Source of the DNA: Desulfuromonadaceae bacterium
Lineage (GTDB): Bacteria; Desulfobacterota; Desulfuromonadia; Geobacterales; Pseudopelobacteraceae
DNA length: 64,000 nt
NCBI GenBank assembly: GCA_028681335.1
Contig: JAQUIT010000006.1
Span: 1 to 64,000 of the forward strand
Direction: 5' to 3'
A model generated the notes under the pieces. The model saw only the letters and a program-made list of their open reading frames with translations. It was not told the DNA's origin and made no database searches. Position numbers and translations under genes: made by a program. Shown here piece after piece: positions 36,279-53,650 of this stretch. The stretch's first letter is position 1; every line of letters starts with the position of its first letter.

Positions 36279-36298
36279 ATTTTATATATATATAAAAT
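36279..36298. promoter_or_regulatory. 20-bp perfect AT palindrome upstream of the tolC-like gene
   Basis: ATTTTATATATATATAAAAT is a perfect palindrome 23 nt upstream of the chosen start. It may be an operator or a start-proximal structure in the mRNA. Confidence 0.55.
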
Positions 36299-37036: not shown

Positions 37037-37104
37037 TATCAAGCCTCCGTTATGGCGGTAAGGATCTTGGATCACAACCTGAATACGATACTCTCACTGC
37101 TGCG

Positions 37105-38168: not shown

Positions 38169-38392
38169 AGGACTCCTGATATTTCCGCAACAGAGGCGAC
38201 CTTACCGGAAAAGACAACCTTGCCGTCAACCACCAGCGCCGGCGTACTCATGACACCGTAGGCCATTATTTTAGGTATCTCTTCAACTTTGACGATCTCG
38301 GCACTTTTCCCGCTCTCCTCTACCGCTTTCTTCACATTCTCGTAGAGATTTTTACATTTGGCACAGCCGGTGCCGAGGACTTCGATTTTCAT
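38165..38392 (-). CDS. Small cytoplasmic thioredoxin-like protein (CxxC)
   Basis: 75 aa, the minimal glutaredoxin/thioredoxin fold of the MTH895/TM0996 type. The active site is GTGCAKCKNL and the cis-Pro segment is YGVMSTPALVVDGKVVFSG. No signal peptide. It could deliver electrons to the CcdA-like protein from the cytoplasmic side, or act in metalloid reduction. It starts 3 nt after the [2Fe-2S] protein gene. Confidence 0.92.
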   Translation of the reverse strand: MKIEVLGTGCAKCKNLYENVKKAVEESGKSAEIVKVEEIPKIMAYGVMSTPALVVDGKVVFSGKVASVAEISGVL

Positions 38393-38394: not shown

Positions 38395-38664
38395 TTATTC
38401 TCCTTTAGTTGTGATGCCTGCTTCAAGCAGCATCGTGATTTCTTTCGAACAACACCTGCCCCGCGGAGAAAGCTCCTTGCAGCGCCCCTTCGTGCAGGCA
38501 CCGGTTATCCGGCGGATGTCATCCATGTTCCTGGCGCCGTTCTGAATTGCGTCCTGTATTGAGCGCTTACTGACAGAGTTGCACCAACAGACAAGTTCGT
38601 CCAAAGGCGCTTCCAGGATGTTTTCAGTATAAGTATTACTAATCAATGGCTGTGTCCGCAACAC
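38395..38664 (-). CDS. BFD-like [2Fe-2S]-binding protein
   Basis: 89 aa from GTG 38664, chosen for GGAGG four to five bases upstream. It overlaps the CDF gene by 22 nt. The BFD-type cluster ligands are VCWCNSV and ACTKGRCKELSPRGRCC, with helix-turn segments between (SIQDAIQNGARNMDDIRRI). Similar modules occur in CopZ and NirB-type proteins as electron relays or metallochaperones. Likely an electron carrier for the thioredoxin genes downstream. Confidence 0.82.
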   Translation of the reverse strand: MLRTQPLISNTYTENILEAPLDELVCWCNSVSKRSIQDAIQNGARNMDDIRRITGACTKGRCKELSPRGRCCSKEITMLLEAGITTKGE

Positions 38665-39575
38665 CGCGCCTCCCGTTCGACGTGATTAAACTCCTTGATC
38701 AACGGACCACCATTGCAACTACTTGGACAGTCAAACTGTATTGTTGTATGGGTAATATGAAAACCGTGCTCCAGTTCATGCTCTATGGTGTGCAATAGTT
38801 GGCTGCGCTCTCCTTCATGCTCCGGTTCAATTTCAACATGAGCAGACAGGGCAAAAATATGTGAGCAGACCGACCAGATATTGAGATGGTGAACGCCGGC
38901 AACCCCCTCTATTGCGCGAATAGTTGCAGCAACGTGTTCGACTGACATCCCGCGCGGCACCCCCTCCATAAGTATATGGACCGCTTCGCGCAGTACCCGA
39001 CCGGCGCCGACCAGGATAAGCAGGCCAATGGCGATGGAAATAAGCGGGTCGGCCTGATACCAACCGGTGTAGTGCATCAGAACAGCAGCGGCAATAACCC
39101 CCACTGAAGCAGCCGCATCTCCCAGTACATGCAGAAAAGCACTGCGCACGTTCAGGTCATCATGTGAATGGCCGTGCAGCCCCTTGGCCGCCAGCAGGTT
39201 GGCAACCAAACCGAATACCGCTATAACCAGCATCGTGGTTGTATGAACCTCTTGCGGCGCAATCAGCCGCTTGCTCCCCTCATAGAGGATACCGACCGCC
39301 ATCAGAAAGACCGTCAGGCCATTGATCAGCGATGCCAGAACCTCGGCCCGATGCCAGCCATAAGAATGGAGTTCGCTCGGAGGTTGCGCAGCCAGCTTGA
39401 TTGCTGCCAGCGACAACACCAGCGCAAACAGATCCAGAAACACATGCCCCGCGTCAGAGAGCAGCGCCATGGAATTGGACCAGAGACCGCCGATGATTTC
39501 CGCCACCAGAGTGACGGCGGTCAGGGAAATCGCAAAAATCAGGCGTTTCGAGATGGATTGGTCAATATTTGCCAT
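38643..39575 (-). CDS. Cation diffusion facilitator (CzcD/ZitB-like)
   Basis: 310 aa, six helices with metal-site motifs LLSDAGHVFLDLFAL (HxxxD in TM2) and HVLGDAAASVGVIAA (HxxxD in TM5), and a cytoplasmic domain with HHLNIWSVCSHIFALSAHVEI. It ends in CCGHSH, a possible metal-binding tail. Proton-coupled export of Zn, Cd or Co is the usual role. It lies 11 nt after the permease in the ArsR-led operon. Confidence 0.93.
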   Translation of the reverse strand: MANIDQSISKRLIFAISLTAVTLVAEIIGGLWSNSMALLSDAGHVFLDLFALVLSLAAIKLAAQPPSELHSYGWHRAEVLASLINGLTVFLMAVGILYEGSKRLIAPQEVHTTTMLVIAVFGLVANLLAAKGLHGHSHDDLNVRSAFLHVLGDAAASVGVIAAAVLMHYTGWYQADPLISIAIGLLILVGAGRVLREAVHILMEGVPRGMSVEHVAATIRAIEGVAGVHHLNIWSVCSHIFALSAHVEIEPEHEGERSQLLHTIEHELEHGFHITHTTIQFDCPSSCNGGPLIKEFNHVEREARCCGHSH

Positions 39576-39586: not shown

Positions 39587-40534
39587 TCAGAGAATTGCGT
39601 TAAACAGATAGCCGACACAGATGATAGCCACGGCCACTGTGCCAAAGAATACCACCAAAAGCCGATTCTTCAGGACGTTCTTCAGAATGATGGCCTCCGG
39701 CAGTGAGAGCGCCGTGACCGCCATCATAAACGCGAGCACAGTGCCGATCGCCATCCCCTTCTCCATCAGCGCATGAACAATGGGGATGACCCCGGCAGCA
39801 TTGGAATAGAGCGGCACCCCAACCAGAACAGCCAGAGGCACGGCAAACATATTGTCACGACCTGCGTAGCGGACCAGAAAGTCCTGCGGCGCATAGCCGT
39901 GGATAAAGGCGCCCAACCCAACCCCGATAACGACATAGGGCCAGATTTTCTTCAACAATTCAAAAGTATACCCACGGGCATATTCAAGCTTCTCGCGGAA
40001 GGTTTGCTTTACAATTTCAGTTTTGCCGACCTGCATCTCCCAGACATAATCCTGGACGTACTTCTCCATCTTCATCTTGCCGATAATGATGCCGCCTATA
40101 ATTGCCACCAGCAGGCCGGTGGAGATGTAAATAAGGGCTATTTTCCAGCCGAACAGTCCCCAGAGCATGATCAGCGCTATTTCGTTTACCATTGGTGAAG
40201 AGATAAGGAACGAAAACGTCACCCCCAGAGGCACGCCGGACTCGACAAAACCGATGAAGAGAGGCACCGCCGAACAGGAACAGAATGGAGTCACAATTCC
40301 GAGCAGGGCTGCCAGAACGTTACCAACGTACTCCCGTTTATGGGAGAGCATCCGCTTGGTTCTTTCAGGTGGAAAGGAGGAGCGGATTATCGCCACCACG
40401 AAGATAATGGTAGTGAGCAGCAGGAAGATCTTCAGCGTATCATAGATGAAGAAGTTGAGCGCCTCGCCCGAATGGGTGCCCGGCACAAGACCTATGGTAT
40501 CAAAAACGAGCCAGTCGGCAAATTGTTTGAGCAT
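39587..40534 (-). CDS. Permease (DUF318/SO_0444-like)
   Basis: 315 aa, about eight to nine helices. Family hallmarks are GIVTPFCSCSAVPLFIGFVESGVPLG in the first half (with CSCS) and YSNAAGVIPIVHALMEKG in the second. Related permeases export organoarsenicals (ArsP) or Cu/Zn. It begins just after arsR, so the regulator probably controls it directly. The substrate is not decided by sequence. Confidence 0.9.
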   Translation of the reverse strand: MLKQFADWLVFDTIGLVPGTHSGEALNFFIYDTLKIFLLLTTIIFVVAIIRSSFPPERTKRMLSHKREYVGNVLAALLGIVTPFCSCSAVPLFIGFVESGVPLGVTFSFLISSPMVNEIALIMLWGLFGWKIALIYISTGLLVAIIGGIIIGKMKMEKYVQDYVWEMQVGKTEIVKQTFREKLEYARGYTFELLKKIWPYVVIGVGLGAFIHGYAPQDFLVRYAGRDNMFAVPLAVLVGVPLYSNAAGVIPIVHALMEKGMAIGTVLAFMMAVTALSLPEAIILKNVLKNRLLVVFFGTVAVAIICVGYLFNAIL

Positions 40535-40535: not shown

Positions 40536-40859
40536 TCAGCCTCTTTCCATTACATTGATCAACTCACTACGCATCTCGACTTCGCGCTTGACGATGGCTG
40601 TTGCCCGGTCGACAATTTCAAAAACTTCGGGATGCTTTACCGCGTAGTAGATCTTGACCCCCTCCTTACGGCGCGAGAGGATGCCGTGGGTCTGCATGTA
40701 AGCCAGGTGGCGGGAGGTATTGGACTGTTCTTCGTCGATGGCAGGAAAAATCTCGCAGACGCATCGTTCGCCGTCGCGCAGGAACTCAACGATCTTCAGG
40801 CGGGTCGCCTGAGCCATGGATTTGAGGACATCGGCAAGGTAACTGTTAGTTGAACTCAT
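40536..40859 (-). CDS. arsR: ArsR/SmtB-family metal(loid)-responsive repressor
   Basis: 107 aa from ATG 40859, with GGAG six bases upstream. Winged-helix fold with the metal box DGERCVCEIFPAI (CxC in the helix where ArsR has ELCVCDL) and recognition helix DEEQSNTSRHLAYMQTHGIL. It should repress when metal-free. Its own promoter carries a 20-bp operator over the -10 element, and the same operator stands before the 50620 operon. It heads a run of about eight minus-strand genes ending near 36566. The divergent neighbour is acr3. Confidence 0.93.
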   Translation of the reverse strand: MSSTNSYLADVLKSMAQATRLKIVEFLRDGERCVCEIFPAIDEEQSNTSRHLAYMQTHGILSRRKEGVKIYYAVKHPEVFEIVDRATAIVKREVEMRSELINVMERG

Positions 40860-40875: not shown

Positions 40876-40919
40876 ATATGACTATACAATCATATATGCC
40901 CGGACGCGTTAATCGTCAA
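40876..40919 (-). promoter_or_regulatory. arsR promoter with operator over the -10
   Basis: On the minus strand TTGACG, 17 nt and TATATG form a sigma-70 promoter (-35 at 40914-40919, -10 at 40891-40896). The operator ATATGATTGTATAGTCATAT (40876-40895) begins inside the -10, with ATATGA/TCATAT as inverted ends. An equivalent unit is at 50443-50486. Confidence 0.88.
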
Positions 40920-41041
40920 GAAAAAAGTCCCCTTTTGATGAAACGTCGGGCAGGAATACACGTTGATGCAGGCAGGACGTAACTTGCTATATATTCGAAA
41001 GTGGATACTATAATATCATCTTTATATCCGCGAGGGGCATT

Positions 41042-42094
41042 ATGTCTGAACACCTTTCCCACAAACTTTCCTTTCTCGATCGCTGGCTGACCATGTGGAT
41101 CTTCACTGCCATGCTTATAGGTGTTGGCCTTGGCTATTTCCTCCCCGGCACAGAAACTTTCATCAACTCCTTCCAGGTCGGCACCACCAACATCCCGATC
41201 GCTGTCGGCCTGATCCTGATGATGTACCCACCCTTTGCCAAGGTGAAGTATGAGGACATGCCGGAGGTCTTCCGGAACAAGAAGATCCTGGGGCTGTCGC
41301 TGGTACAGAACTGGCTCATCGGCCCGGTGCTGATGTTCGTGTTGGCGGCGCTGCTGCTGCCGGACAAGCCGGAGTACCTTGTGGGTCTCATCATGATCGG
41401 CTTGGCACGCTGCATCGCCATGGTTATTGTCTGGAATGAGCTGGCTAAAGGAAATACCGAGTACGCCGCAGGACTCGTAGCTTTTAACAGTATTTTTCAG
41501 GTTCTGTTCTACAGTGTCTATGCCTGGTTCTTCATCACGGTGCTGCCGCCGCTGGTGGGGCTTAAGGGAATGGTTGTGGACGTTAGCATCCGCCAGATTG
41601 CGGAGAGCGTCTTTATCTACCTCGGTATCCCCTGTATAGCCGGAACCCTGACACGCTACATCGGTTTAAAAATTATGGGCAAGGAACGTTACCATCGGGA
41701 GTTCGTCCCAAAAATAAGCCCGCTGACACTGATCGCTCTCCTTTTCACCATAGTGGTAATGTTCAGCCTGAAAGGGAATCTGATTGTCCAGTTGCCGCTG
41801 GATGTGGTACGGATTGCTATCCCGCTTTTGATCTACTTTGTAGTGATGTTCCTGGTCTCATTCTGGATGGGTAAAAAGATGGGGGCTGACTACAGCAAAA
41901 CAACCACGCTGGCATTTACCGCTGCCAGTAACAACTTTGAGCTGGCAATAGCGGTATCAGTGGCGGTGTTCGGCATCAACTCCGGCGCAGCTTTTGCTGC
42001 CGTAATCGGCCCGCTGGTGGAGGTGCCGGTGATGATAGGACTGGTTAATGTAGCGTTTTTGTTTCGGAAACACTGGTTTGGCAACGAAGCATAA
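41042..42094 (+). CDS. acr3: Arsenite efflux transporter Acr3
   Basis: 350 aa, about ten helices. Acr3 features: [20 protein letters not shown] at the N-terminus, [15 protein letters not shown], and [19 protein letters not shown] with the functional cysteine of TM4. The C-terminal [19 protein letters not shown] carries the conserved Asn/Glu. It extrudes arsenite (and antimonite). Divergent from arsR. GAGGGG lies six bases before the ATG. ACTATAATATCAT at 41006-41018 resembles the arsR operator. Confidence 0.95.
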
Positions 42095-42122
42095 TCCTCT
42101 TCAGGAAAGCAAACAATAACAT

Positions 42123-43103
42123 ATGAACTTGACCGATACCTTCAATCGCCAGATAAACTACCTGCGCCTCTCGGTGACGGATCGCTGCAACATGCGTTGT
42201 TTTTACTGCATGCCGGCAGAGGGGGTGCAGAACATCGGCCATGATGCGGTGCTCTCCTATGAAGAGCTACAGCTGATCGCCGAGAGTGCCGTCAGTTTAG
42301 GGATCGAAAAAATCCGGATCACCGGCGGAGAACCAACGGTTCGCGCCGGGATTGTGCAGTTTATGGCCGGATTGGCTGCGATCCCCGGCTTGCGTCACCT
42401 GGCCCTGACGACCAACGGTCAACTGCTGGAGAAGATGGCTTCAGAGCTGTATCAGGCCGGGGTGCAACGACTGAACGTGAGCCTGGATTCGCTCAATCCG
42501 CAGACGTTTCATAAAATCACCCGTGGCGGGGATCTGACCAAGGTTCTGGCTGGTCTCGATGCAGCGGTGGATGCCGGTTTTCCGCCACCCAAAATAAATA
42601 TCGTCATCATGCGGGGGATAAACGACGCCGAGATCCTTGATTTTGCCGAACTGACCCGCAGCCGCGGCAATTCGGTCCGCTTTATCGAGTACATGCCGGC
42701 GGTAAAGGATGATGGATGGCAACGACTCTGTTTCCCTGGCGAGGAGGTGCTGCAAAGGATCAGGGAACGATACTCCCTTGAATCGGTGAACAAAGGGAAC
42801 TTTGCCGGGCCGTCCCAGGATTTTCGCATCCCCGGTGCCACAGGGAGCATCGGCATCATTACCGCCGTGTCAGGTCACTTCTGCAGCGACTGCAACCGGA
42901 TTCGTGTCACGGCCCGCGGGCAGGCAAAGGGGTGTCTTTTCAGTGATGAAAAGACAGATCTGGCCCCGTTTCTGCGGCCGCCAGACCGGGAAGGCCTGGC
43001 AAAAGTGCTACAGGAAATTGTGCAGTCAAAACCTGAAGGTCACGGCATCAGGTGCGGCGAATACTCTCACAGCAACTTCAGCATGGCCCAGATAGGAGGA
43101 TGA
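42123..43103 (+). CDS. moaA: GTP 3',8-cyclase
   Basis: 326 aa radical-SAM enzyme of molybdopterin synthesis. The SAM cluster cysteines are C22, C26 and C29 (RCNMRCFYCMP). The C-terminal cluster ligands are CSDCNRIRV and GQAKGCLF. It ends in the catalytic GG (SMAQIGG). 28 nt after acr3 and directly before a decayed MOSC gene with its own ribosome site. It supplies cofactor for molybdoenzymes, one of which is encoded at 44177-46429. Confidence 0.96.
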   Translation: MNLTDTFNRQINYLRLSVTDRCNMRCFYCMPAEGVQNIGHDAVLSYEELQLIAESAVSLGIEKIRITGGEPTVRAGIVQFMAGLAAIPGLRHLALTTNGQLLEKMASELYQAGVQRLNVSLDSLNPQTFHKITRGGDLTKVLAGLDAAVDAGFPPPKINIVIMRGINDAEILDFAELTRSRGNSVRFIEYMPAVKDDGWQRLCFPGEEVLQRIRERYSLESVNKGNFAGPSQDFRIPGATGSIGIITAVSGHFCSDCNRIRVTARGQAKGCLFSDEKTDLAPFLRPPDREGLAKVLQEIVQSKPEGHGIRCGEYSHSNFSMAQIGG

Positions 43104-43106
43104 TAA

Positions 43107-43226
43107 ATGGCTGAGGTAGTCGCTGCCTGCGTCAGCGAGAACAAGGGCAAGCAAAAAGCCGGTCGCATCTGTGCAACTGCGGGTGGACCAGGGTATCGCG
43201 TAGAGGATGCCCATGCCGGTGACTAG
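43107..43226 (+). pseudogene. MOSC-domain gene remnant
   Basis: A good AGGAGG stands before ATG 43107, and the frame opens MAEVVAACVSENKGKQK, as MOSC proteins do. It then loses frame: the next 15 residues match only when read one base over (KKPVASVQLRVDQGIA). The original frame returns for EDAHAGD, a MOSC hallmark, followed by TAG at 43224. Two small indels and a truncation leave 39 codons. MOSC genes usually sit beside moaA, which supports the reading. Confidence 0.75.
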
Positions 43227-43278
43227 ACGTAAACGCGAGGACCTGATAGAAAAGTAATGAATAACACATATCTGGCAT

Positions 43279-43307
43279 AAAAAAGGCCGGCGGAGGGAAC
43301 CGCCGGC
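43279..43307 (-). terminator. Terminator of the molybdoenzyme operon
   Basis: On the minus strand GCCGGCGG pairs with CCGCCGGC around six bases, followed by six T residues. It lies 45 nt after the ferredoxin subunit stop. Confidence 0.9.
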
Positions 43308-43351
43308 ATAACAGGGAGGAGGGTTATATGAATATATCCCGGTTCTACAAT

Positions 43352-44116
43352 TTAGCTAAGCTTAAAACTACCTAACTGTTTAAGGGACGGCCGCAACATC
43401 CTTGCCATGAAGATGCGCCGGTAGTTGACCTCGGCCAGTGCTGTAGGCGTTGAGTTCTGGGTCAGCAGACTTATATCCTTTTTCTTGCCATAGTAACGGA
43501 CATTAGGCCCGATCTTTACTTTGGCGCTTTCCAGCCTGACAGCCCCCTTGCCAACATATTGGGAAATCTCCGCTTTTTTATCGTTTAAATCACCACAAAT
43601 ACGTGCTCGGGCAAGACAGGTCTGAACACAAGCCGGTTCAAGCCCAACAGCTGTTCGTTCAACACAGAGCGTGCATTTGTCCGCTTTGGGGACGCCACCC
43701 TCTTCGAACAGATAGCGCGCCGTATAGGGGCAACTATCGGCGCAGGCTCCACACCCGAGACAGCGTTCTTTGTCAATTTGCACTGTGCCGTTAAATGGGT
43801 CTTTCCACGTAGCGGCAACGCTTAGCGTCTTTTTCTCACCGGTTTTGGGGTCGCTGAAAGTGACCGCAACCTTGTCGGCCGGGCAGCTTTCGACACAAAC
43901 CGGGCTGTCGCAATGATTGCAGAGGCCGACGTAATAGGTGGAAGCCAAACCGTGCGGAGTAGCATCGGGGCCGAGGCGCTCAACCCAGTTTCTGCGCTGT
44001 TTCCTGTTTGCGCTGTCCAGGCCGACGGGGACGTCCCATTCTGCCCTGCAGGCGACGCTGCAGGCATGACAGCCGACGCACTTGTTCAGATCTATGACCA
44101 TACCGTATTGACTCAT
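43352..44116 (-). CDS. Four-cluster ferredoxin subunit of a molybdoenzyme
   Basis: 254 aa of the NrfC/PhsB/DmsB type. Four [4Fe-4S] sites are visible: CVGCHACSVACRAEW, CNHCDSPVCVESCP, CLGCGACADSCPY and CTLCVER...ACVQTC. No signal peptide, so it would be co-exported with the TAT-signal-bearing catalytic subunit. It relays electrons to the molybdopterin centre. No NrfD-like membrane gene follows; a terminator does. Confidence 0.94.
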   Translation of the reverse strand: MSQYGMVIDLNKCVGCHACSVACRAEWDVPVGLDSANRKQRRNWVERLGPDATPHGLASTYYVGLCNHCDSPVCVESCPADKVAVTFSDPKTGEKKTLSVAATWKDPFNGTVQIDKERCLGCGACADSCPYTARYLFEEGGVPKADKCTLCVERTAVGLEPACVQTCLARARICGDLNDKKAEISQYVGKGAVRLESAKVKIGPNVRYYGKKKDISLLTQNSTPTALAEVNYRRIFMARMLRPSLKQLGSFKLS

Positions 44117-44176
44117 AATTATCTCTCCATCGCTCTATGTTTCAGAAGGACTCACCGGTAATAATGCCCGATTCGT

Positions 44177-46429
44177 TCAGGCAGGAATACTGAGCACCTT
44201 GCCATCTTTCATGATCCGCACAAAACTGGTACGCATCCCGTGCGCACCGGTTTCCGGGTCAACCGCCGGATTAGTGATCAATGCCTGATCATCAAACCCC
44301 TTGTTCACACCATTGGTCATGGCTGGATTTTTTGTACCGTAGCCATGGGCGGTAAAGATCGTATCTTTGCGAATACCCAAGGTAACCTTAAGGACGCCGG
44401 CTTTTACTGAGACAACGCCATCCTGATTGACCAGATTGATCCTGTCACCGTTTTTCAGGCCAAGCTTTTCTGCCGTTGTCTGATTCAGCCAGATAGGATT
44501 CTCCGGTATCTCCGCGTTCAACCAGACATTATTCATCGTACGGTTAAAGGTATGGACCGGCACTCTGCCGTACACCAACCGGGCAAAACCCTGTGGTGGT
44601 TCCGCCACAGGAGTATAGCTCGGCGCGCCTGAATAGCCAGCATCAGCCAGATCTTCATTGAAAAACCTGACCGGATAGACCATGCCATACGGGTCCGTAC
44701 CCGACTGCAGGTGAATGCCGTCCTCTTTCCTGATTTGGGCCACAGAAAGTTGGGCACCGGCCAGAATCTTGTCTACCATCGCTTCAGCGGAGGGGGCCGG
44801 AATCTGTTTGGTGTGTCCAAGTCGTTTTGCCAATTCATTCGTAATCCAGACCGAATCTTTGCGCTGATGATCGGCAGAGACTGACGAGACAAGCGGCATG
44901 CGCGGGGCAATGTACTGTTGATGCTTGTCGTTAAGGTCCCACTGAACTCCGGTTTTCACGATATCGTACCTTTCCAGGTAGGAGAGTTCCGGCAGCAGAA
45001 TATCGGCGTACATGGTAATGTCCGTCGGCATGACATCAACCACCATGACAAAATCCATCTGCTGCAGCATTTTTATGGTTTCCTGTTGACCAGGAATAGT
45101 CTGGATCGGGTTCTGCCCCCAGGTGATACATGCCTTGATCGCATAAGGCTTGCCGGATATTGCCGTATCCCTCAGCATCTGGGTCGGAGTACCGGGAGGT
45201 GAGAACTGGTGTTTTTCAGCCATTTTATGCAGAGCAAACTCTTCGGCATGTTCAGCGCCGATATCAGGCCAGGCAACCTTGCCCAGCTTGGGCCCTTTGG
45301 GTACGACAAAGCCTCCCTTGGTACCGATGGCTCCCAGTAAGCCGGTAAGACAGGCCAGCGCCCGTTCGCGCTGAAAATCAGTACCGTACCAGGTAACGTG
45401 GCGGCCGGGATGAATAGACACATGGGGGGCATTTGTGGCAAGGAGATCGGCAACTTCCTTGATCTGCGCAGCAGGAACATCACAGATTTTTGCCGCCCAA
45501 TCCAGCTCGGCATGGGCGATAGCTTTGGCAAACTTGTCAAAACCCTCACCGTTCTTCTGCACATAAGCGCTGTCGTAGGTCTTTTTCTTGACCAGGTAGT
45601 TCATCACCGCCAGCAGGAAGGCGGTATCAGTACCAGGTTTGATCTGTACCCAGACATCTGCCTTCGCTGCCGAAGATGAAAAACGTGGGTCAACAACAAT
45701 CAACTTTGCACCGTTTTCAAGCCCCTTCAGGTATTGCTTAACATGGGAAACATGGATGTTTTCGCCGATATGCGTACCAACCAGGAGAATAGCCTTGGCA
45801 TTCGGCATATCAACATTTTCACCGGCCTGAACACCAAAGGTGTTGATATACGCCATATCACGCGGACCGCGGCATTGAAAGAAGGAAGCCTCTGAGTTAT
45901 TGGGAGTACCGACCACTTTCTCAAAGTAGTGCATCGGATAGGTGGCAGAAGCGCCATGAGGAAATATGGCAATTCCTTGCGGCCCATTGTTTTTGATAAC
46001 ACCCTGCAGGCGCGATGCGCATTCGTCCAAAGCCTCATCCCACGAGATACGCTTCCATACCGGTGCACCACGCTTGCCGACATTTTTCAACGGATATTTG
46101 AGGCGATCCGGGTCGTAGAGCAGTTTGACTCCGGCATTGCCGCGTGCACAGATACTTGCACCGTTATCAATACTTTTGGGGTTGCCTTCCAGCTTCACCA
46201 GTTTACCGTCACGCAGTTTGCCGACAAGCTGGCAACGCCAGAAGCACATTTCACAGACGCCTCCTGTAACAGTGGTGGTATCGCCAAAGCTGCCGGGGGC
46301 GGTAAACGGTTTTCTAACAAAACCGGACCGGGCCTGCGCCCCTGAGGCCAGCCACGTTGACAGCGCAGTTGTCAACGCTGCAGAGGCCGACGCCTGCAGG
46401 AAACTCCTTCGGGTCATCTGAAATGCCAT
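44177..46429 (-). CDS. TAT-exported molybdopterin oxidoreductase (Psr/Phs/Arr-like)
   Basis: 750 aa from ATG 46429, with GGAGG eight bases upstream. The TAT motif MTRRSFLQ is at residues 5-12. The [4Fe-4S] ligands are C59, C62, C66 and C94 (C-x2-C-x3-C-x27-C). Cys186 in FFQCRGPRDMA is a candidate Mo ligand, as in thiosulfate, polysulfide and arsenate reductases. The C-terminal MopB domain contains NVWLNAEIPENPIWLNQ. The substrate (sulfur, selenium or arsenic oxyanion) is not decided by sequence. It follows its TorD-like chaperone gene. Confidence 0.92.
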   Translation of the reverse strand: MAFQMTRRSFLQASASAALTTALSTWLASGAQARSGFVRKPFTAPGSFGDTTTVTGGVCEMCFWRCQLVGKLRDGKLVKLEGNPKSIDNGASICARGNAGVKLLYDPDRLKYPLKNVGKRGAPVWKRISWDEALDECASRLQGVIKNNGPQGIAIFPHGASATYPMHYFEKVVGTPNNSEASFFQCRGPRDMAYINTFGVQAGENVDMPNAKAILLVGTHIGENIHVSHVKQYLKGLENGAKLIVVDPRFSSSAAKADVWVQIKPGTDTAFLLAVMNYLVKKKTYDSAYVQKNGEGFDKFAKAIAHAELDWAAKICDVPAAQIKEVADLLATNAPHVSIHPGRHVTWYGTDFQRERALACLTGLLGAIGTKGGFVVPKGPKLGKVAWPDIGAEHAEEFALHKMAEKHQFSPPGTPTQMLRDTAISGKPYAIKACITWGQNPIQTIPGQQETIKMLQQMDFVMVVDVMPTDITMYADILLPELSYLERYDIVKTGVQWDLNDKHQQYIAPRMPLVSSVSADHQRKDSVWITNELAKRLGHTKQIPAPSAEAMVDKILAGAQLSVAQIRKEDGIHLQSGTDPYGMVYPVRFFNEDLADAGYSGAPSYTPVAEPPQGFARLVYGRVPVHTFNRTMNNVWLNAEIPENPIWLNQTTAEKLGLKNGDRINLVNQDGVVSVKAGVLKVTLGIRKDTIFTAHGYGTKNPAMTNGVNKGFDDQALITNPAVDPETGAHGMRTSFVRIMKDGKVLSIPA

Positions 46430-46430
46430 A

Positions 46431-46997
46431 CTACGGTTCCTCCCTGGTAAAAAAGTCAACCAATGTGAGTAGTGTTGAATAAAACTGGTTTGTGGATCCA
46501 CTGAGAACACGTTCCCTGAAAAGCGGGAACCATCTGCGGAAATGTTCGTTTAAAAACTGTTCAGCCTTATCACCCTGCTGCTCTTCAATCAACAGGGCAA
46601 GAAATTCAAGCTCCAACACCAGATGATCCGGAATATCTCCTTCTCCCTCAACATCAAAACCATGCAGCTGGTAAAACTGTTTCACCCATACAGCCGACTG
46701 GCCGTACAAATTCCCTTCATGGTCAAGATAAATAGAGCTGTATGGCGGGGCAATCACTGCGGGTGCAGCGTTTATGAACAACCGGGTATACTCTATCTGC
46801 AACAATTCAAGCCCGTCCGACTCGGCATTGTAATTCCAGTGCAAGCCTGTGGCATCACTGTTAAGGGCAAGGTTCTGTTTAATATTCCCCAGCAGATCAA
46901 AATATGGCTCAGTGAGCCACGCCTGCTCGGGGTAGCGAAAGGATTGTGCCAAAAAGCGATATAACGACGCAGGAGTTTCTGATTGAGGACAGTTCAT
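46431..46997 (-). CDS. TorD/DmsD-family chaperone
   Basis: 188 aa from ATG 46997. A TTG at 47033 would add 12 residues but lies 2 nt from repeat copy D and has no ribosome site. Helical protein with the family pattern LYRFLAQSFRYPEQ, EYTRLFINAAPAVIAPPYSS and PDHLVLELEFLALLIEEQ. It binds the TAT signal and guides cofactor loading of the molybdoenzyme encoded immediately downstream (1 nt gap). The upstream region is interrupted by a repeat that may have replaced the original leader. Confidence 0.9.
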   Translation of the reverse strand: MNCPQSETPASLYRFLAQSFRYPEQAWLTEPYFDLLGNIKQNLALNSDATGLHWNYNAESDGLELLQIEYTRLFINAAPAVIAPPYSSIYLDHEGNLYGQSAVWVKQFYQLHGFDVEGEGDIPDHLVLELEFLALLIEEQQGDKAEQFLNEHFRRWFPLFRERVLSGSTNQFYSTLLTLVDFFTREEP

Positions 46998-47035
46998 TGG
47001 CAGCCGGTCCGTTTTTTGGGTATTTGTTTTCAAAG

Positions 47036-47073
47036 CCCCCTCCCTTGACGGGAAGGGGTTGGAGGGATGGTGA
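47036..47073 (+). repeat. GC-rich dispersed repeat, copy D
   Basis: Begins CCCCCTCCCTTGACGGGAAG and ends GGAGGGATGGTG. It lies between the TorD-like gene and the small protein gene at 47116. Same orientation as copies A and B. Confidence 0.82.
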
Positions 47074-47115
47074 TCAATACAGTTCCTGAAAAGATTGCAT
47101 CTCTTCGGGATTTAC

Positions 47116-47397
47116 CTAGCACCCCTGCATGGTTGCAGCCTTATCAACCCTGACGGTGTCGCCGGCTTTAAGTTCGTCAGCAGTACGAGCCTTGATCGTT
47201 ACTTTGGTGCCGTCAACGGCAGTAACCTTTCCGGCTTTGCCGTTCAGCTTAACACCAGCACCTTTTTTCAGTTTGGCATCGGAGCCCATATCAACAACAG
47301 CGGCACCATCGGCAACGGAAACGACCTTACCTTCGGCGGCGAAAGCAGCAGTGGCAGCAAACAGTGACAGGGCCAGCACAATGATTGTTTTTTTCAT
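47116..47397 (-). CDS. Small exported beta-rich protein ending in Gly-Cys
   Basis: 93 aa from ATG 47397, with AAGGAG ten bases upstream. A signal peptide (KKTIIVLALSLFAATAAFA) precedes a small beta-rich domain with repeated V-D/G turns (GKVVSVADGAAVVDMGS, GKVTAVDGTKVTIKA, LKAGDTVRVDKA). The final residues are MQGC, the only cysteine. Pattern and size resemble the 25174 protein. Function unknown. It is coded between a porin operon and the molybdoenzyme chaperone. Confidence 0.75.
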   Translation of the reverse strand: MKKTIIVLALSLFAATAAFAAEGKVVSVADGAAVVDMGSDAKLKKGAGVKLNGKAGKVTAVDGTKVTIKARTADELKAGDTVRVDKAATMQGC

Positions 47398-47557
47398 TAG
47401 ATGTGTTCTCCTTTTAATGTGATGAGCATGGGTGGTCAGCCAAATACCTGACTTGTGCCGGATGTTCCTGTTTTTTCCTGTAAATGTAAAACGAATGTTT
47501 GGCATAGCCAAACAACAAACAGGAATAGTGACCCTCTTTGACAGTACCAGACGGTTA

Positions 47558-47848
47558 TCAGTCTGAGATCGGCTTGGCGTTCCATTTAACACGAACAGAC
47601 GGCTTTTTTTCAGGTGTCTTTTCAGTCAGCTTCTCGTCCGCTCTGGTTGGCGGCGTTTCACCTTTTTGAAGCTGCTGCGACGATGTCCCGCTGACATACT
47701 GCCATGAGTTGACGGTCTGGCTCGGTTCATCAAGAATAACGGTCTGCGTCTTGCCGGAACGATAGGTTATCACCAGTGAATCAGCCTGACAGGTGCTTGT
47801 GGCAAACAAAATCAGGGCGAAGGCAGAAATAGCGGAAGCTGGACTCAT
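47558..47848 (-). CDS. Small exported protein of unknown function
   Basis: 96 aa. AAGGAG lies nine bases before the ATG. A signal peptide (SPASAISAFALILFATSTCQA) precedes a short beta segment (SLVITYRSGKTQTVILDEPS) and a charged Lys/Glu/Pro-rich tail. No family recognised. It lies 69 nt after the porin stop, with a hairpin between, and 161 nt before the 47397 start. Confidence 0.7.
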   Translation of the reverse strand: MSPASAISAFALILFATSTCQADSLVITYRSGKTQTVILDEPSQTVNSWQYVSGTSSQQLQKGETPPTRADEKLTEKTPEKKPSVRVKWNAKPISD

Positions 47849-47881
47849 AAGGGTACATTCTCCTTGCAGAAGGTTAGAGTT

Positions 47882-47906
47882 GGGTGCCGGAAATTGCCCG
47901 GCACCC
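47882..47906. other. Intercistronic hairpin without U-tract
   Basis: GGGTGCCGG and CCGGCACCC form a perfect 9-bp stem with a 7-nt loop between the porin and the 47558 gene. No T-run follows on the minus strand. It parallels the hairpin after the other porin (25573-25608). Confidence 0.7.
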
Positions 47907-47916
47907 TGATTGTTCT

Positions 47917-49350
47917 CTAGAATACCACCTGCAACATCGTACGGAAAGTATCAAAATTCTTGACGCTGGCAAGACCGGTCGTACCTGCAACGGGAAGAGT
48001 TGCCGGGGTATCGAAATCGGTTTTCAAAAATTCACCCGTAATTCGTACCCGCTGATCACCGCTCACATAATAGTTGACGCCGACCCCATATTGTTTGATT
48101 TTCTGGTTGTTCACACCAAGCAGGTGGGCAAATTTCCAGTTTTCAAACAGCGCGTATGGCTGGATTTTACCTGCTTTTCCAACGGTAATCGGTAAAATAT
48201 GTGCAGCCTTAACATAGTAACCTTCCTTCTGGCCGTTCAAACCGCTGATCACCGCAATACGTTCGGCAGAAGCAAAACTTGTCTTGTACGCATCGTCAAA
48301 ATCAGCATTCAGGTACTGGGCGGTAAGCGTCGGAATACCGAATGAAGTTGGATATTCAAACATCATATCAACCGCATAAGCCGTATAATCAACGGTCTCA
48401 TTATTAGTATTTCTCGATGCAACCTTTGTGACAACGGAACCAGCCGGAATTACAGGAGCAGGACCTTGACTTGTCGTGCCGTTTGAGTAGGTAAATACAT
48501 TGGTAGTATTCCTGAATGCAGCGTCCGGTTGAAAAGCCATACCAAAGCCGATATTAAAGACTTTCTTCTCGCCAAAATAGGTGCCTTGATAGCCGGAACC
48601 ACCTTCAGACTCAAGGAAGTCAACGGTTGCTCGACCAACGTACTGAAGACTGGTCTTCGGCGCGGTGGTAGAGGTCGCAATCAGCCCGGCTGTAGGACCG
48701 AGCGGGATCTGTGATGCCGCTGTCCCTTCACGTCCCTGGAATATACCGGCAAAATAGGTGAGCCGTTCGTCCATGAAGCGCCCGGAAGCCACAGCCCCCA
48801 TATCACGACTGAACTTCGCCGGAGAGGTGCCGTACGCACTGTAGACGAACATAGAGCGATCCAGGGAAAGCGGGGCAAAGCAATCATCAAGGTTAGCACG
48901 GGTCAGAGGGATCTTCGTGAGGCCAACCTTCAGGTTGAGATACTCATTCAAGCGGCCAATGGCATAGGCATCAATAACCCGCACATCGCGATCGTTCCAG
49001 TCGGTCTCCTGAGCAGAAAGACCATACATGATCGGCGTTTTGGTCGACCCGGTATTACCGCACGTCTGAATTTTGTATCCCCAGGTTTCATCTATCATGC
49101 CGGTCAAACCAAGACGATTACGCATAAAGTGGATATCGGTGCGGCTTTGATCGCCATTAGGTCCACCACCGTAATCAGTATTTTCCACATAGATCTGCCC
49201 TTTCAGGTCAATCTGTAGAAAACCACCTTCATCACCGAACTCGATGCGTGGTCCTGCCTGTGCCTGAGCCGCAAAACCCAAGCCCAGCAGTAGTGCCGAA
49301 CCTGCCGCCACCGCCTTGCAACTCTGAGAAAATCCCGGTTTTTTCAGCAT
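47917..49350 (-). CDS. Outer-membrane porin (OprO/OprP-like)
   Basis: 477 aa. AAGGAG precedes the ATG. A signal peptide (ending GFAAQAQA) is followed by barrel strands with the phosphate-selective porin pattern: GGFLQIDLKGQIYVEN, DIHFMRNRLGLTGMIDETWGYKIQ, NLKVGLTKIPLTRANL and a C-terminal TMLQVVF. Anion selectivity is typical of the family, which suits an oxyanion substrate of the molybdoenzyme downstream. First gene of a six-gene minus-strand unit ending at the 43279 terminator. The LysR gene diverges from it. Confidence 0.85.
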   Translation of the reverse strand: MLKKPGFSQSCKAVAAGSALLLGLGFAAQAQAGPRIEFGDEGGFLQIDLKGQIYVENTDYGGGPNGDQSRTDIHFMRNRLGLTGMIDETWGYKIQTCGNTGSTKTPIMYGLSAQETDWNDRDVRVIDAYAIGRLNEYLNLKVGLTKIPLTRANLDDCFAPLSLDRSMFVYSAYGTSPAKFSRDMGAVASGRFMDERLTYFAGIFQGREGTAASQIPLGPTAGLIATSTTAPKTSLQYVGRATVDFLESEGGSGYQGTYFGEKKVFNIGFGMAFQPDAAFRNTTNVFTYSNGTTSQGPAPVIPAGSVVTKVASRNTNNETVDYTAYAVDMMFEYPTSFGIPTLTAQYLNADFDDAYKTSFASAERIAVISGLNGQKEGYYVKAAHILPITVGKAGKIQPYALFENWKFAHLLGVNNQKIKQYGVGVNYYVSGDQRVRITGEFLKTDFDTPATLPVAGTTGLASVKNFDTFRTMLQVVF

Positions 49351-49496
49351 GACAATTCTCCTTTTGTCGGGGTATTATCCCGACTGTACAAGAGTGGTAA
49401 TAAATCTGCTGTCATATGTATCAGCTTTGCTGTAAAAGAAAATTGAATGATTGTGATGGCTCGATAACAGATTGTAATAGAAGGAAAACACTATAT

Positions 49497-50411
49497 ATGG
49501 AATCGGTATATCTAAAGACACTGGTAGAAGTGGTAAAGGCTGGCAGCATATCCAAGGCGGCCGATAAGCTCTGCGTCACACAGCCGGCAATTTCACGCCG
49601 CATCAAGTTTATCGAAGAACAGTACGGTTACCCGCTTCTTGATCGCAGCGGACAGACGCTGTTGCTCACAACTGCAGGGAGGCTTGTCTTTGAAAAAGCC
49701 GAAAAACTCCTGGAGATCGAGCGGGAGCTGCTCTCCGGCCTCAAGTCAATGCGGGAAAACAAAAGCATCGCCTTTATCTGCACCCCCACCTTCGGCATTG
49801 TCCACCTGCCAACAATCATGCGGGAATTCATGATGGAATTTAATGACCTGGCAGATCTCTCTTTCATGTTTGACACACCGGGCAAAATTGTCGAAGCGCT
49901 ACGCGATGGCATGTATGACCTTGCTATCATCGAGCATTGCGAATGTTTTGATTTTTCCAACCTGGCAACAGTTGCCCTGCCGGGTGACGAGATGATCTTT
50001 GTCAGCTCTCCAGCACTTGCCATTCCTGCCGGCAATCCCGGCAATGACGCTCTATTCGCACAAAACGTCTTTGTCCGAAAAGAGGGATGTTGTTCAAGAA
50101 CACTTCTTGAGGGCAATCTGCGCGCTATCGGTAGCGAACTCTCGGACTTCAGGAGCTTTGTGGTTATTGATGATCTGCACATGATTATTCAGGTAACACT
50201 TGAGGGGCAGGGGGTGTCGTTTCTCTCCCGCGAGCTTGTACAGGAGCAGCTTGATGCCGGCCTGCTGCGCGAACACCGCATTGATGGCTTTAGACATCAT
50301 CGCAACAGAACCATGATAATCCATGGCGATTGCCATCAGCAACAAAACCCGCCACTTAACTACTTTATAGACATCCTCACCAAACGCTTTGTTTCACCAC
50401 GCTCCTGTTGA
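49497..50411 (+). CDS. LysR-family transcriptional regulator
   Basis: 304 aa from ATG 49497 (MESVYLKTLVEVVKAGSISKAA). AAGGA lies about a dozen bases upstream, and the longer frame to 49416 has no LysR character. N-terminal winged helix-turn-helix (SKAADKLCVTQPAISRRIKF) and C-terminal substrate-binding domain with three cysteines (NVFVRKEGCCSRTLLEG). Divergent from the porin-molybdoenzyme operon across 146 bp, where TATTA...TAATA ends bracket a possible LysR box. It is likely the operon's regulator. Confidence 0.93.
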   Translation: MESVYLKTLVEVVKAGSISKAADKLCVTQPAISRRIKFIEEQYGYPLLDRSGQTLLLTTAGRLVFEKAEKLLEIERELLSGLKSMRENKSIAFICTPTFGIVHLPTIMREFMMEFNDLADLSFMFDTPGKIVEALRDGMYDLAIIEHCECFDFSNLATVALPGDEMIFVSSPALAIPAGNPGNDALFAQNVFVRKEGCCSRTLLEGNLRAIGSELSDFRSFVVIDDLHMIIQVTLEGQGVSFLSRELVQEQLDAGLLREHRIDGFRHHRNRTMIIHGDCHQQQNPPLNYFIDILTKRFVSPRSC

Positions 50412-50442
50412 ACATGGCGCTGTCCCGGCAACAATTCCAACC

Positions 50443-50486
50443 TTGACATTCCATACGCCAAAGACTATATGATTATGTAGTCATAT
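50443..50486 (+). promoter_or_regulatory. ArsR-type promoter/operator of the 50620 exporter operon
   Basis: TTGACA (50443-50448), 17 nt, TATATG (50466-50471) form the promoter. The operator ATATGATTATGTAGTCATAT (50467-50486) overlaps the -10 exactly as at arsR. It matches the arsR operator at 18 of 20 positions. Confidence 0.88.
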
Positions 50487-50619
50487 AATCTTTAAGCAAC
50501 AGAGTCGCAACGCTCCGTCCCCGCCTCAGGGGTGTTTTTTCGAGGCAATTGAATTCGTAACGACGTTCGTGCTCGTCCTGCTTCTGTTCGACGGAATCCT
50601 CTGAAAGGTAATTTTCGAC

Positions 50620-51264
50620 ATGAAAGAAAAACTCTACGCCCGTGCTAATTATCTGGCGCTGTTCACTATTTTTTACAACCTTGTCGAGGGGGGCGCCTCT
50701 GTCTGGTTCGGAGCCGCCGATGAGACCCTGGCGCTGTTCGGCTTCGGCGTGGATTCGTTCATTGAAGTCATTTCAGCGATCGGCGTCTGGCACATGCTAC
50801 GCAGAATCAGGGCCAATGGCGGAGAATCGCGGGACGAATTTGAGCAACGCGCGCTCAGGATTACCGGTGCAGCATTCTACATCCTGTCGGCCGGGCTCGT
50901 GGTAACGGCCGGTCTTAACCTGTACCAGCAGCACAAGCCGGAGACAACCTTGTGGGGCATCGTAATTTCGCTGCTTTCGATATCCTTCATGTGGTTTTTG
51001 ATACGTCAGAAGACCAGCGTCGGCACAGCACTCAACTCACCGGCCATACTTGCTGACGCCGCCTGTTCCCGAGCGTGCCTCTACCTGTCGCTGGTGTTAA
51101 TGCTTTCCAGTGTTGGCTATGAGCTGACCGGCATCGGCAGTCTGGATGCCATTGGCGCCATACTGATTTCCTGGCTGACCATCCGCGAAGGCAAAGAGGC
51201 TTTCGGCAAGGCCAAAGGGATGAGCTGTTCATGCTGTTGCAGCGCTGCCCAAGCAAAGAATTAA
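50620..51264 (+). CDS. CDF-like cation transporter with Cys-rich tail
   Basis: 214 aa, about six helices related to the membrane part of cation diffusion facilitators (FGFGVDSFIEVISAIGVW in TM2, ILADAACSRACLYLSLVL in TM5), without the usual cytoplasmic domain. The C-terminus ends in a thiol-rich cluster (GMSCSCCCSAAQ) likely to bind soft metals. First gene after the ArsR-type promoter, followed by an adaptor, permease and ATPase. AAAGG precedes the ATG. Confidence 0.85.
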   Translation: MKEKLYARANYLALFTIFYNLVEGGASVWFGAADETLALFGFGVDSFIEVISAIGVWHMLRRIRANGGESRDEFEQRALRITGAAFYILSAGLVVTAGLNLYQQHKPETTLWGIVISLLSISFMWFLIRQKTSVGTALNSPAILADAACSRACLYLSLVLMLSSVGYELTGIGSLDAIGAILISWLTIREGKEAFGKAKGMSCSCCCSAAQAKN

Positions 51265-51281: not shown

Positions 51282-52451
51282 ATGGCTTTGCGGAATAAGC
51301 TGGTACGAAACAAAAAATATCTGCTATGGGGCCTTGCCGTCGTTGTCGTGGCTGTCATCGTCAAGATGACGCTCCTCGCCCCGCCGCTGGTGAAGGTCGT
51401 ATCGTTACAAAAGCGTGACCTGACAGCACAGGTCTACGGCAATGGCACCGTCGAAGCCAAGGTGGTAGTTGGCGTTTCCAGTAAAATAACCGGGAGGATT
51501 GTAACGCTGCATGTTGACCAGGGGGATCACGTCAAACGCGGCCAACTGCTCGCCACGCTGGAAAGCGATGACCTGCTCCAGCAGCAGAAGTTGTCCGAGG
51601 CGGGAGTCAGCAAGTCAGCAGCCAACCTGAAAGTGGAAATAGCGAATCTTCAGAAAGCCCGCGCAAACCTGGTTCTGGCAAAAGACAATGCCAGACGCTT
51701 CAAATCCCTGCTTGATGGCGGCATGGTTTCCCGGCAGGAAGCCGAACAGTATGAAAACGTCTATCAGGTCGCCCGGGAGGATGTTGCCCGCAGCGCGGCG
51801 ATGATTGAAGCGGTACGGATGGAACAGGCGGCCAATCGCGCCGGTCTCGGTTTTGCCGGCAGCAAGGTGGCGGACACCCGCATCCTGGCCCCGATGGATG
51901 GAATCATTATCACCCGCAATCTGGAAAAGGGAGCGACAACAACTCCGGGCCAGACAATATTCACGCTGGCCGATCCTGACACGATCTGGGTTACCGCCAA
52001 CGTTGACGAATCACAGCTGAAAGGTGTGGCTGTCGGCAAGAGCGCCGTAATAATGCTTCGTTCTTCACCGGGTGAACAGTGGGCCGGCCAGGTTGCCCGA
52101 CTTGGCTACCAGAGTGACCGCGTTACCGAAGAGCTGCAGGTGAATGTGGCCTTTAAGCCGCCGCGCGTAAACTTCAGGCTGGGAGAGCAGGCTGAGGTTT
52201 ACATCACGACCGAAGCCAAGAAATCGGCCCCTTCCCTCCCCTCCGCAGCGCTGGTAACCAGCGGTAAAAAACGGGGCGTATGGGTCGCGGATAACGGTAG
52301 ACTCAGCTTCAGGGCGGTGACCGCGGGCATACGAGATCGTGGCGATTTTACCGAGATCACCGGAGGGCTTGACGACAACGCGAGAGTTGTCGTTGCAGAC
52401 CCGCTGAAAATGGCAAAATTCCGGGACGGCATGAGGGTCCGGATTCAATGA
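51282..52451 (+). CDS. Periplasmic adaptor (HlyD/MacA-like)
   Basis: 389 aa from ATG 51282, with AAGGAG six bases upstream. One N-terminal helix (YLLWGLAVVVVAVIVKMTLL) anchors it. The lipoyl-like segment (GRIVTLHVDQGDHVKRGQLLATLES) is split by a coiled-coil hairpin (~105-190), followed by barrel domains (ADPDTIWVTANVDESQLKGV). It overlaps the permease gene by ATGA. Together with the next two genes it forms a MacAB-like exporter, although no outer-membrane channel gene is present here. Confidence 0.92.
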   Translation: MALRNKLVRNKKYLLWGLAVVVVAVIVKMTLLAPPLVKVVSLQKRDLTAQVYGNGTVEAKVVVGVSSKITGRIVTLHVDQGDHVKRGQLLATLESDDLLQQQKLSEAGVSKSAANLKVEIANLQKARANLVLAKDNARRFKSLLDGGMVSRQEAEQYENVYQVAREDVARSAAMIEAVRMEQAANRAGLGFAGSKVADTRILAPMDGIIITRNLEKGATTTPGQTIFTLADPDTIWVTANVDESQLKGVAVGKSAVIMLRSSPGEQWAGQVARLGYQSDRVTEELQVNVAFKPPRVNFRLGEQAEVYITTEAKKSAPSLPSAALVTSGKKRGVWVADNGRLSFRAVTAGIRDRGDFTEITGGLDDNARVVVADPLKMAKFRDGMRVRIQ

Positions 52452-53650
52452 ATCTCGCCATACGCGACATACGCTACCACCGGGGCCGGTTTATCCTGAC
52501 ATCGATCGGGTTGGGGCTGTTACTGGGAGTCGTTATCAGCATGGGGGGAATCTACCGGGGACTTATTGCCGATGCCCTGGCGATACTGAACGCCAACAGG
52601 GCCGACATCTGGGTGGTCCAGCAGGACACCAACGGTCCTTTTGCCGAAAGTTCGCGGATACCCGAAGACATCAAATACAGAATTGCAGCGGTTCCGGGTG
52701 TTGCGGCGGTATCACCGCTCGCCTTGCAAACCATCCAGATCGAGCGCAATGGCAAACCGTTCCGTTTTTTCCTGATCGGCTATGGCATGGGCAGTTTCGG
52801 CGGCCCCCCTTCCATCATTGCCGGCAGAAACATCAGCCAGAAACATTACGAAATGGTGGTGGCCAAGTCGATGAAGATCGGGCTCGGAGAGAAGCTCCGT
52901 TTAGGGCAAAACGAATACACCGTCGTCGGCATCGCAGAAAACATTGTATCCTCAAGCGGCGACCCGGCCGCATACGTAACCCTTGCCGACGCCCAGGATA
53001 TCCAGTTCAAAAAGAGCAACCACGCCATCAGGAACGAGAGAACAAAAATAGCGGCCGGTGCCGACGCAATAGCAACGTTTTCCCAACAACAGGCTGATTT
53101 TCTGGCGAACAACATCATTGCGGCAACCGAATCGACACACACGGTCAACACGGTAATGGTGAGGCTGGACGCAGGAGCCGACCTGAAACAGGTGCAGGAG
53201 CGAATCCAGCGCTGGAACTACCTGCGTGCCATCTCCGACGCCGAACAGACCACCATCCTTTCCAAGGGGATGATAGAAAAGGCCCGGATGCAGTTGGGAC
53301 TGTTCAGGGCCATACTACTGGTTATCTCAGGCGTCATTATTTCACTGATCATCTACACCTCAACACTCGACAAGATCCGGGTCATTGCCACCCTGAAGCT
53401 GATCGGCTCCCAAAACCGGGTTATCATCGGCATGATCCTGCAGCAATCACTCCTGATGGGGATACTGGCCTACGGCATCGGCTACGCTGTGATCCTCCTT
53501 ACGTACGAAAATTTTCCCCGCCGGATCGTCCTTGAAGCTTTCGACCTGCAAGCGCTGTTTGTCATCGTCATGGTAATTTGTACGTTTTCCAGCTTTGTGG
53601 GGATTCGAAAAGCGCTCAAGGTCGAACCGGCCGAAGCATTGGGGGGGTAA
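52448..53650 (+). CDS. ABC transporter permease (FtsX/MacB type)
   Basis: 400 aa. An N-terminal helix (RFILTSIGLGLLLGVVISMGG), a large periplasmic domain (~45-270) and three C-terminal helices (LFRAILLVISGVIISLIIY, LLMGILAYGIGYAVILL, ALFVIVMVICTFSSFVG). This mechanotransmission topology is typical of MacB, LolC/E and FtsX. Coupled to the adaptor by a 4-bp overlap and to the ATPase by 1 nt. Confidence 0.93.
   Translation: MNLAIRDIRYHRGRFILTSIGLGLLLGVVISMGGIYRGLIADALAILNANRADIWVVQQDTNGPFAESSRIPEDIKYRIAAVPGVAAVSPLALQTIQIERNGKPFRFFLIGYGMGSFGGPPSIIAGRNISQKHYEMVVAKSMKIGLGEKLRLGQNEYTVVGIAENIVSSSGDPAAYVTLADAQDIQFKKSNHAIRNERTKIAAGADAIATFSQQQADFLANNIIAATESTHTVNTVMVRLDAGADLKQVQERIQRWNYLRAISDAEQTTILSKGMIEKARMQLGLFRAILLVISGVIISLIIYTSTLDKIRVIATLKLIGSQNRVIIGMILQQSLLMGILAYGIGYAVILLTYENFPRRIVLEAFDLQALFVIVMVICTFSSFVGIRKALKVEPAEALGG

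Follow-up and report, generated by a model that had tools for sequence, protein, structure and literature searches.

One ArsR repressor may serve two separated operons in a Desulfuromonadaceae bacterium, one of them through a putative relic arsR promoter

We analysed a 64,000-nucleotide stretch of DNA (hereafter, the window; contig JAQUIT010000006.1, positions 1 to 64,000) from a Desulfuromonadaceae bacterium, in which two operons carry the same type of promoter-operator unit: the operon of an ArsR-family repressor gene on the minus strand, and an operon on the plus strand that encodes a cation diffusion facilitator (CDF)-like protein, here called CDFx, and a MacAB-like exporter. Comparisons of these sequences with those of relatives make it likely that the one ArsR controls both operons, and that the exporter promoter derives from a promoter that once preceded arsR in a composite operon. 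A single metal(loid)-sensing ArsR thus appears to switch two sets of detoxification genes, because the exporter set no longer has a repressor gene of its own but still carries the operator. This dual control had been proposed in an initial annotation of the window, and is supported by the co-occurrence of the site and this ArsR across the family, by a fused operon in a related genome (G025), and by the operator kept in two others (G027 and G029).

Two equivalent promoter-operator units in the window

The arsR unit (40876..40919, minus strand) consists of TTGACG-N17-TATATG with the operator ATATGATTGTATAGTCATAT at 40876-40895, and an equivalent unit is located before arsR in relatives. The exporter unit (50443..50486, plus strand) consists of TTGACA-N17-TATATG with the operator ATATGATTATGTAGTCATAT at 50467-50486, and is kept in G027 and G029. 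Reading of both strands confirmed the TTGAC[G/A]-N17-TATATG unit that the initial annotation had described at the two loci, and these are the only two places in the window with TTGACN-N17-TATATG. The 20-bp operators were also as described: they are identical at 18 of 20 positions, differ at the other 2, and have inverted ATATGA/TCATAT ends. Judged from the sequence, both operators overlap the -10 box of their own promoter, and the arsR-side operator is an inverted repeat over the core promoter of its own gene, as in the ArsR/SmtB family.

When the operator pattern was searched with up to 3 mismatches, the window matched at the arsR and exporter sites only, with 0.02 matches expected from shuffles. 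A weight matrix was built from 28 arsR-side sites of other genomes, 20 of which are distinct (L049, which has no clear site, was omitted). The arsR-side site scored 30.8 (31.3 on the other strand) and the exporter site 30.2, against 14.2 for the next-best position in the window and a maximum of 20.1 over 100 Markov-resampled windows. The runner-up, at 36235, was rejected as a site, its score being inside the range of the resampled windows.

The genome-wide operator search that the initial annotation had suggested was run over the 4.0 Mb of the genome (40 contigs). With a first pattern, the arsR and exporter sites were the only ones below 3 mismatches, and the three matches at 3 mismatches all lay within open reading frames (ORFs; cheW-like, glycosyltransferase-like and dnaA, named by eye). 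With a slightly different second pattern, the dnaA site and a further match, at C13:13815, had 2 mismatches. The three sites and C13:13815 were rejected as regulon members, each being inside an ORF, and the arsR and exporter units were the only intergenic sites found. The window holds a single ArsR-family gene, as had been stated; the genome has two HTH_5 genes, the second of which (C23:52567) lacks the CVC motif and is of a different subtype.

A gene for an ACR3 arsenite pump (41042-42094) has neither the operator nor the separate ArsR (38–44% identity) that adjoins ACR3 in several relatives, and no gene of that kind was found in the window's genome. Within the 146-bp gap upstream of ACR3, no match agreed at more than 9 of the 12 end positions, and the gene was rejected as a third target.

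The operator accompanies this ArsR across the family

The family set comprised 76 genomes including that of the window (G000), and a match of at least 56% identity was counted as an ArsR orthologue. Orthologues (56–100% identity) were present in 50 of the 76 genomes. A site with at most one mismatch was found in 36 of these 50 genomes, compared to 1 of the 26 without the orthologue (Fisher p=4e-9), and a site with at most two mismatches in 43 of 50 and 6 of 26, respectively (p=8e-8). This association is partly circular, because the consensus was built from arsR-side sites.

Across the family, ATATGA-N8-TCATAT overlaps the arsR promoters. TTGAC precedes the -10 box in 28 of 28 arsR-side sites, at a distance of 17 nt (20 sites) or 18 nt (8 sites), and the -35/-10 spacing is 16–18 nt in 19 of 20 compared units, the twentieth (G033) not being counted. 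In addition, EQSNTSRHL and CVCE are present in all 34 ArsR homologues. The operator consensus, ATATGAYTRWDTARTCATAT, predicts regulon members in the family.

The exception among the 26 genomes without the orthologue was G022, where an operator (L084:10114-10133) stands directly before arsP-CDFx-zitB, and an arsR orthologue was not found in the assembly. G020 has a second operator, with exact ends (L075:9945-9964), before zitB alone, which is another sign of a dispersed regulon.

Fused and split operons point to a probable origin of the exporter promoter

In G025, one operator heads arsR-arsP-CDFx-zitB-BFD-arsE-trx-ccdA-tolC-macA-ftsX-ABC-rhodanese, which combines both operons of the window, with a TolC only 25% identical to that of the window. 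Shorter fused versions, in which CDFx directly follows arsR-arsP, were observed in G004, G015, G031, G033, G040, and G046. The split arrangement, with arsR in one place and a LysR gene, the operator and CDFx in another, was observed in the window, G027, and G029 (on separate contigs in G029). In G027 and G029, CDFx is followed by zitB, not by the MacAB module.

The operator lies at -153, -151 and -151 relative to the CDFx start in G000, G027 and G029, respectively. The 133-nt exporter leader (50487..50619, plus strand) aligns with the arsP-CDFx junction of the fused operons, through the stop and the ribosome site, and AATCCTCTGAAAGG is common to G000 and G025; the part at about 50520-50604, with a stop codon at 50602-50604, is taken as the decayed 3' end of arsP. 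When the leaders of G000, G027 and G029 were aligned with four arsP-CDFx junctions, shuffled versions matched the best local score in 0, 0 and 14 of 2000 cases, respectively. At the protein level, 3 of 300 (G027) and 0 of 300 (G029) shuffles were as good in their likeness to arsP. On the simplest reading of the alignment with the arsP-CDFx junction, the exporter promoter would be what was once an arsR promoter, with arsR and most of arsP since lost, and both operons seem to derive from a single ancestral ArsR operon.

A terminator-like stem at 50516-50534 was rejected as an attenuator, since G027 and G029 do not retain its T-run, which aligns with FF codons of arsP. No known riboswitch was found in the leader by an Rfam match at the gathering score; elsewhere in the window, Rfam matched a TPP riboswitch (8697-8823) and a tRNA (3332-3403), both on the minus strand.

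The ArsR of the window, G027 and G029 groups with those of G020, G021, G030, G011 and others, not with those of G015 and G025, whose CDFx proteins are 90% and 88% identical to that of the window, respectively. This grouping apart from G015 and G025, despite the close CDFx, suggests that the exporter operator was taken over by a repressor of another sub-group.

The MacB-type module is linked to TetR or to ArsR

The initial annotation had also placed a MacAB-like exporter under ArsR. This linkage recurs in five further genomes (G013, G025, G044, G045, and G071), in which such a module lies within an ArsR operon or behind the operator. Full-length relatives of the permease (75–87% identity) were found in 36 of the 75 other family genomes. 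Among 38 loci of the module, 20 were linked to TetR, 6 to ArsR, and 12 to neither. At each of the 20 TetR-linked loci, the same type of TetR gene lies upstream and is accompanied by an ATGTGA-N8-TCACAT repeat (at most one end mismatch); the TetR gene and repeat stand before TolC-MacA-FtsX-ABC at L229, L231, L233, L236, L241, L242, L244, L245, L254, L257, and others. In its 20-bp geometry this repeat matches the ArsR operator, from which it differs by one base per half.

For the six ArsR-linked loci, namely the window and the five further genomes, no TetR gene was found in the upstream stretch examined, and a TetR of the module-linked type was not found in the window's genome (best match 29%). 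The operators of G045 and G071 have two end mismatches, and the two loci were classed as ArsR-linked on the basis of an arsR gene within the operon; G060 was classed as TetR-linked, with its TetR-TolC-MacA part about 5.8 kb before the permease gene. G037, counted as having no link, is probably ArsR-linked, with trx-ccdA upstream up to the contig end; four of the 12 loci linked to neither (G009, G032b, G034, and G035) have less than 2 kb of upstream sequence. On the permease tree, the six ArsR-linked loci needed 5 changes, compared to a shuffled mean of 5.8, and thus showed no clustering beyond chance. This scatter indicates that the link to ArsR arose or was lost repeatedly.

A model for the shared control, and alternatives to it

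In the model that we consider most likely, the single CVC-type ArsR would bind both operators as a dimer; as the operators overlap the -10 boxes, the bound repressor would keep RNA polymerase from transcribing either the arsR operon or the CDFx/MacAB-like operon. Joint induction would follow when C33 and C35 hold a thiol-binding metal(loid) and ArsR is released. The former composite operon would have had the order operator-arsR-arsP-CDFx-..., and its arsR promoter would survive as the exporter promoter, arsR and most of arsP having presumably been lost at this locus in an ancestor that the line of the window shares with G027 and G029. The kept operator would then respond in trans to an ArsR of another sub-group, whose gene lies 9.6 kb away. 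CDFx-zitB stands behind the operator in G027 and G029; in the line of the window, MacA-FtsX-ABC, which is TetR-linked in most classified relatives, would have come to stand behind CDFx.

Several observations weigh against this model. At 19 of 30 CDFx loci, no such site was present within the approximately 1.5 kb examined. Among 78 L-numbered CDFx loci, 66 have no site in operon position, 10 have one with at most one end mismatch, and 2 more have one with 2 mismatches; several L loci apparently represent the same contigs as G genomes. The arsP-like signal of the leader was weaker when the last 20 nt were omitted (22, 97 and 119 of 2000 shuffles for G000, G027 and G029, respectively), and the protein-level likeness to arsP was modest for G000, with 16 of 300 shuffles as good. 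A genome with both ArsR sub-groups was not seen, which leaves the takeover step without an intermediate. Finally, in G028, whose ArsR belongs to the same sub-group as that of the window, the operator is absent upstream of CDFx-MacA-FtsX-ABC.

It is unlikely that the exporter site is a fossil of a deleted arsR locus, either unused or bound by ArsR without physiological effect. The decay of the leader behind the site (56–64% identity among G000, G027 and G029, compared to 83–86% for CDFx) and the fact that G028 runs the same four genes without the site would both fit such a fossil. However, the -35 box, the -10 box and all 12 operator end positions are intact in the three species, whereas the flanks and the leader have diverged, and the exporter genes are intact.

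An origin of the exporter operator by copying or transposition from the promoter of arsR at the other locus, instead of retention from an arsR once present locally, is highly improbable. Similarity between the two units extends to the -35 box, spacing and operator, but their spacers and flanks are unlike, and the leader carries the likeness to arsP-CDFx junctions described above. In addition, the LysR-operator-CDFx order matches that of G015 and G025, where arsR-arsP stand between, and the exporter operator is identical at 19 of 20 positions to the plus-strand reading of the G015/G025 arsR operator.

Ownership of the site by another regulator, such as the product of the LysR gene directly upstream of it in the window, G015, G025, G027, G029, G033 and G040, is very doubtful and was rejected for the LysR protein, because, in the examined stretches of G003, G004, G008, G011, G020, G028, G031 and G046, arsR carries this site and that LysR is absent, and the genome's other HTH_5 protein is of a different subtype. 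The LysR gene itself (49416-50411) matches the model of a multiheme cytochrome-associated regulator (NF041036; 351.6 bits, compared to a cut-off of 210).

Candidate inducers

The type 1 As(III) site of the R773 type is formed by the equivalents of C32, C34 and C37, according to PMC11868830. The ArsR of the window has only two cysteines, C33 and C35, so that the three-cysteine As(III) site of R773 ArsR is incomplete. Cys37 of R773 ArsR is not known to be needed for derepression, and As(III) is thus still a possible inducer. SpArsR, another two-cysteine ArsR, responds to methyl-As(III) and not to As(III), as reported in PMC11868830 and PMC13236881. Arsenite is a candidate rather than an established inducer, because ArsR has only two cysteines and the neighbouring ACR3 gene has no operator of this type; methyl-As(III) and another soft metal are candidates as well.

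A broader scenario, which we offer tentatively and which may well not hold, is that Desulfuromonadales have a sub-family of two-cysteine ArsR proteins that controls a modular arsP-CDF-thiol-redox regulon directed at a species other than inorganic arsenite (for example methylarsenite, a thio species or a soft-metal species). The split MacB-type exporter, usually run by TetR, would have been captured several times, in the line of the window by way of an orphan operator that lost its own repressor and came under one of another sub-group acting in trans.

Relation to described systems

One ArsR with dispersed targets is already known, as are ars operons with ccdA and thioredoxin genes. In Thermus thermophilus, one ArsR/SmtB repressor, TtSmtB, acts on dispersed promoters with arsenic-related genes (PMC5658604); unlike in the window, the targets in the accessible text of that report are its own gene, a Zn/Cd-type ATPase gene and arsC, with no CDF, MacB-type exporter or split-operon origin among them. 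In Pseudomonas putida, a footprinted ArsR operator covers the -10 of a sigma-70 promoter, and Pars1 contains ATAGTCATAT, which is the right half of the arsR-side operator of the window; there, as far as the accessible text extends, two repressors (ArsR1 and ArsR2) cross-regulate each other's promoters (Pars1 and Pars2), whereas the window has one repressor, two promoters and other target genes (PMC7994332). ArsR1 of Agrobacterium tumefaciens also acts beyond its own operon, but its stimulon, in the accessible part of the report, comprises phosphate and other genes with different motifs (PMC7965956). The described ars operons with ccdA and thioredoxin have the same redox gene set as the window; in the accessible text of their descriptions arsC is present in 7 of 8 instances and an ABC exporter in none, whereas the arsR operon of the window has no arsC among its genes.

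A genome note on Geobacter sp. OR-1, a cultured relative with a fused arsR-arsP-CDFx operon (locus L123), names two arsenic islands, and this arsP operon is not among them. Our searches of the open-licence literature turned up no account of a MacB-type exporter belonging to an ArsR regulon, nor of an orphan operator with this origin. The window would provide a readable case of regulon spread: once a composite operon has come apart, one part no longer has the repressor gene but retains the operator, which is then served by a related repressor. In Geobacter-like bacteria, which are related to arsenate-respiring strains, a CDF-like protein and an ABC exporter of the MacB type would also be linked to metal(loid) stress. 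The window raises the directly testable question of whether the ArsR of one sub-group can read the operator of another.

Genes of the two operons and their surroundings

The arsR operon is read on the minus strand. ArsR (40536..40859) scored above the curated cut-offs of HTH_5 (39.7 compared to 22 bits) and HTH_metalloreg (82.1 compared to 55 bits). The gene is followed, 1 bp behind, by arsP, for an ArsP_1 permease (39587..40534; Pfam, 282.7 bits), and by genes for a ZitB-like CDF transporter with a dimer domain, assigned by domain matches (38643..39575), a BFD-like [2Fe-2S] protein with a Fer2_BFD match, whose start is uncertain and overlaps the neighbouring gene (38395..38664), an ArsE/MTH895-type thioredoxin-like protein (38165..38392; TIGR00412, 111.8 bits with a cut-off of 62), a thioredoxin with an N-terminal signal-peptide-like stretch, identified by eye (37788..38168), and a CcdA/DsbD_TM membrane protein, assigned by a domain match (37105..37791). 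This is the gene set that the initial annotation had read, to which a gene for a rhodanese domain protein (36566..37039) is added. The genes from arsR to ccdA are close-packed, with gaps of -22 to 11 bp, and the rhodanese gene lies 65 bp further on and is the probable end of the operon because a 285-bp gap comes next. Behind this gap, which contains a promoter-like match, are TolC-MFP-RND genes (30573..36280, minus strand), whose membership in the arsR operon is uncertain.

The exporter operon, on the plus strand, encodes CDFx (50620..51264), a MacA-like periplasmic adaptor of the HlyD/RND_mfp type (51282..52451), a MacB_PCD/FtsX permease (52448..53650), and a separate ATP-binding cassette (ABC) ATPase that is DevA/LolD/MacB-like (53652..54347). 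CDFx is a CDF-like membrane protein without a dimer domain and with a cysteine-rich C-terminus. It scored above the cut-off of Pfam Cation_efflux (35.9 compared to 26.6) and below that of TIGR01297 (27.1 compared to 82.35), with no ZT_dimer match. Its structure model has six helices, with a predicted local distance difference test (pLDDT) score of 79.7, and the best PDB match was the zinc transporter YiiP (8f6k, E=8e-5). Cysteines C149, C153, C203, C205 and C207 are invariant in 20 sequences. Two genomes, at L149 and L150, have two CDFx copies (73% identity to that of the window), about 6.2 kb apart, each behind a weak ArsR-like match (26%).

MacB proteins have the ATPase and the permease fused in one protein. 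Like MacAB/DevBCA-type tripartite ABC exporters, the window has an adaptor, a MacB_PCD/FtsX permease and an ABC ATPase in one operon; unlike them, its permease and ATPase are separate ORFs, and the proteins fall below the family cut-offs for MacA (NF008606, 115 compared to 342 bits), MacB (NF007826, 201.2 compared to 966), DevC (43.5 compared to 290.35), and DevA (227.5 compared to 295.8). The description as MacAB-like therefore stands for a split ABC exporter with MacB/FtsX domains, and not for MacAB proper.

Between the two operons, at 43352-47033, the window encodes a PhsA/PsrA-like molybdopterin oxidoreductase with iron-sulfur and chaperone subunits, which scored below the equivalog cut-offs. 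A PhsA/PsrA-like block also adjoins the operator in G015, G025, and G027.

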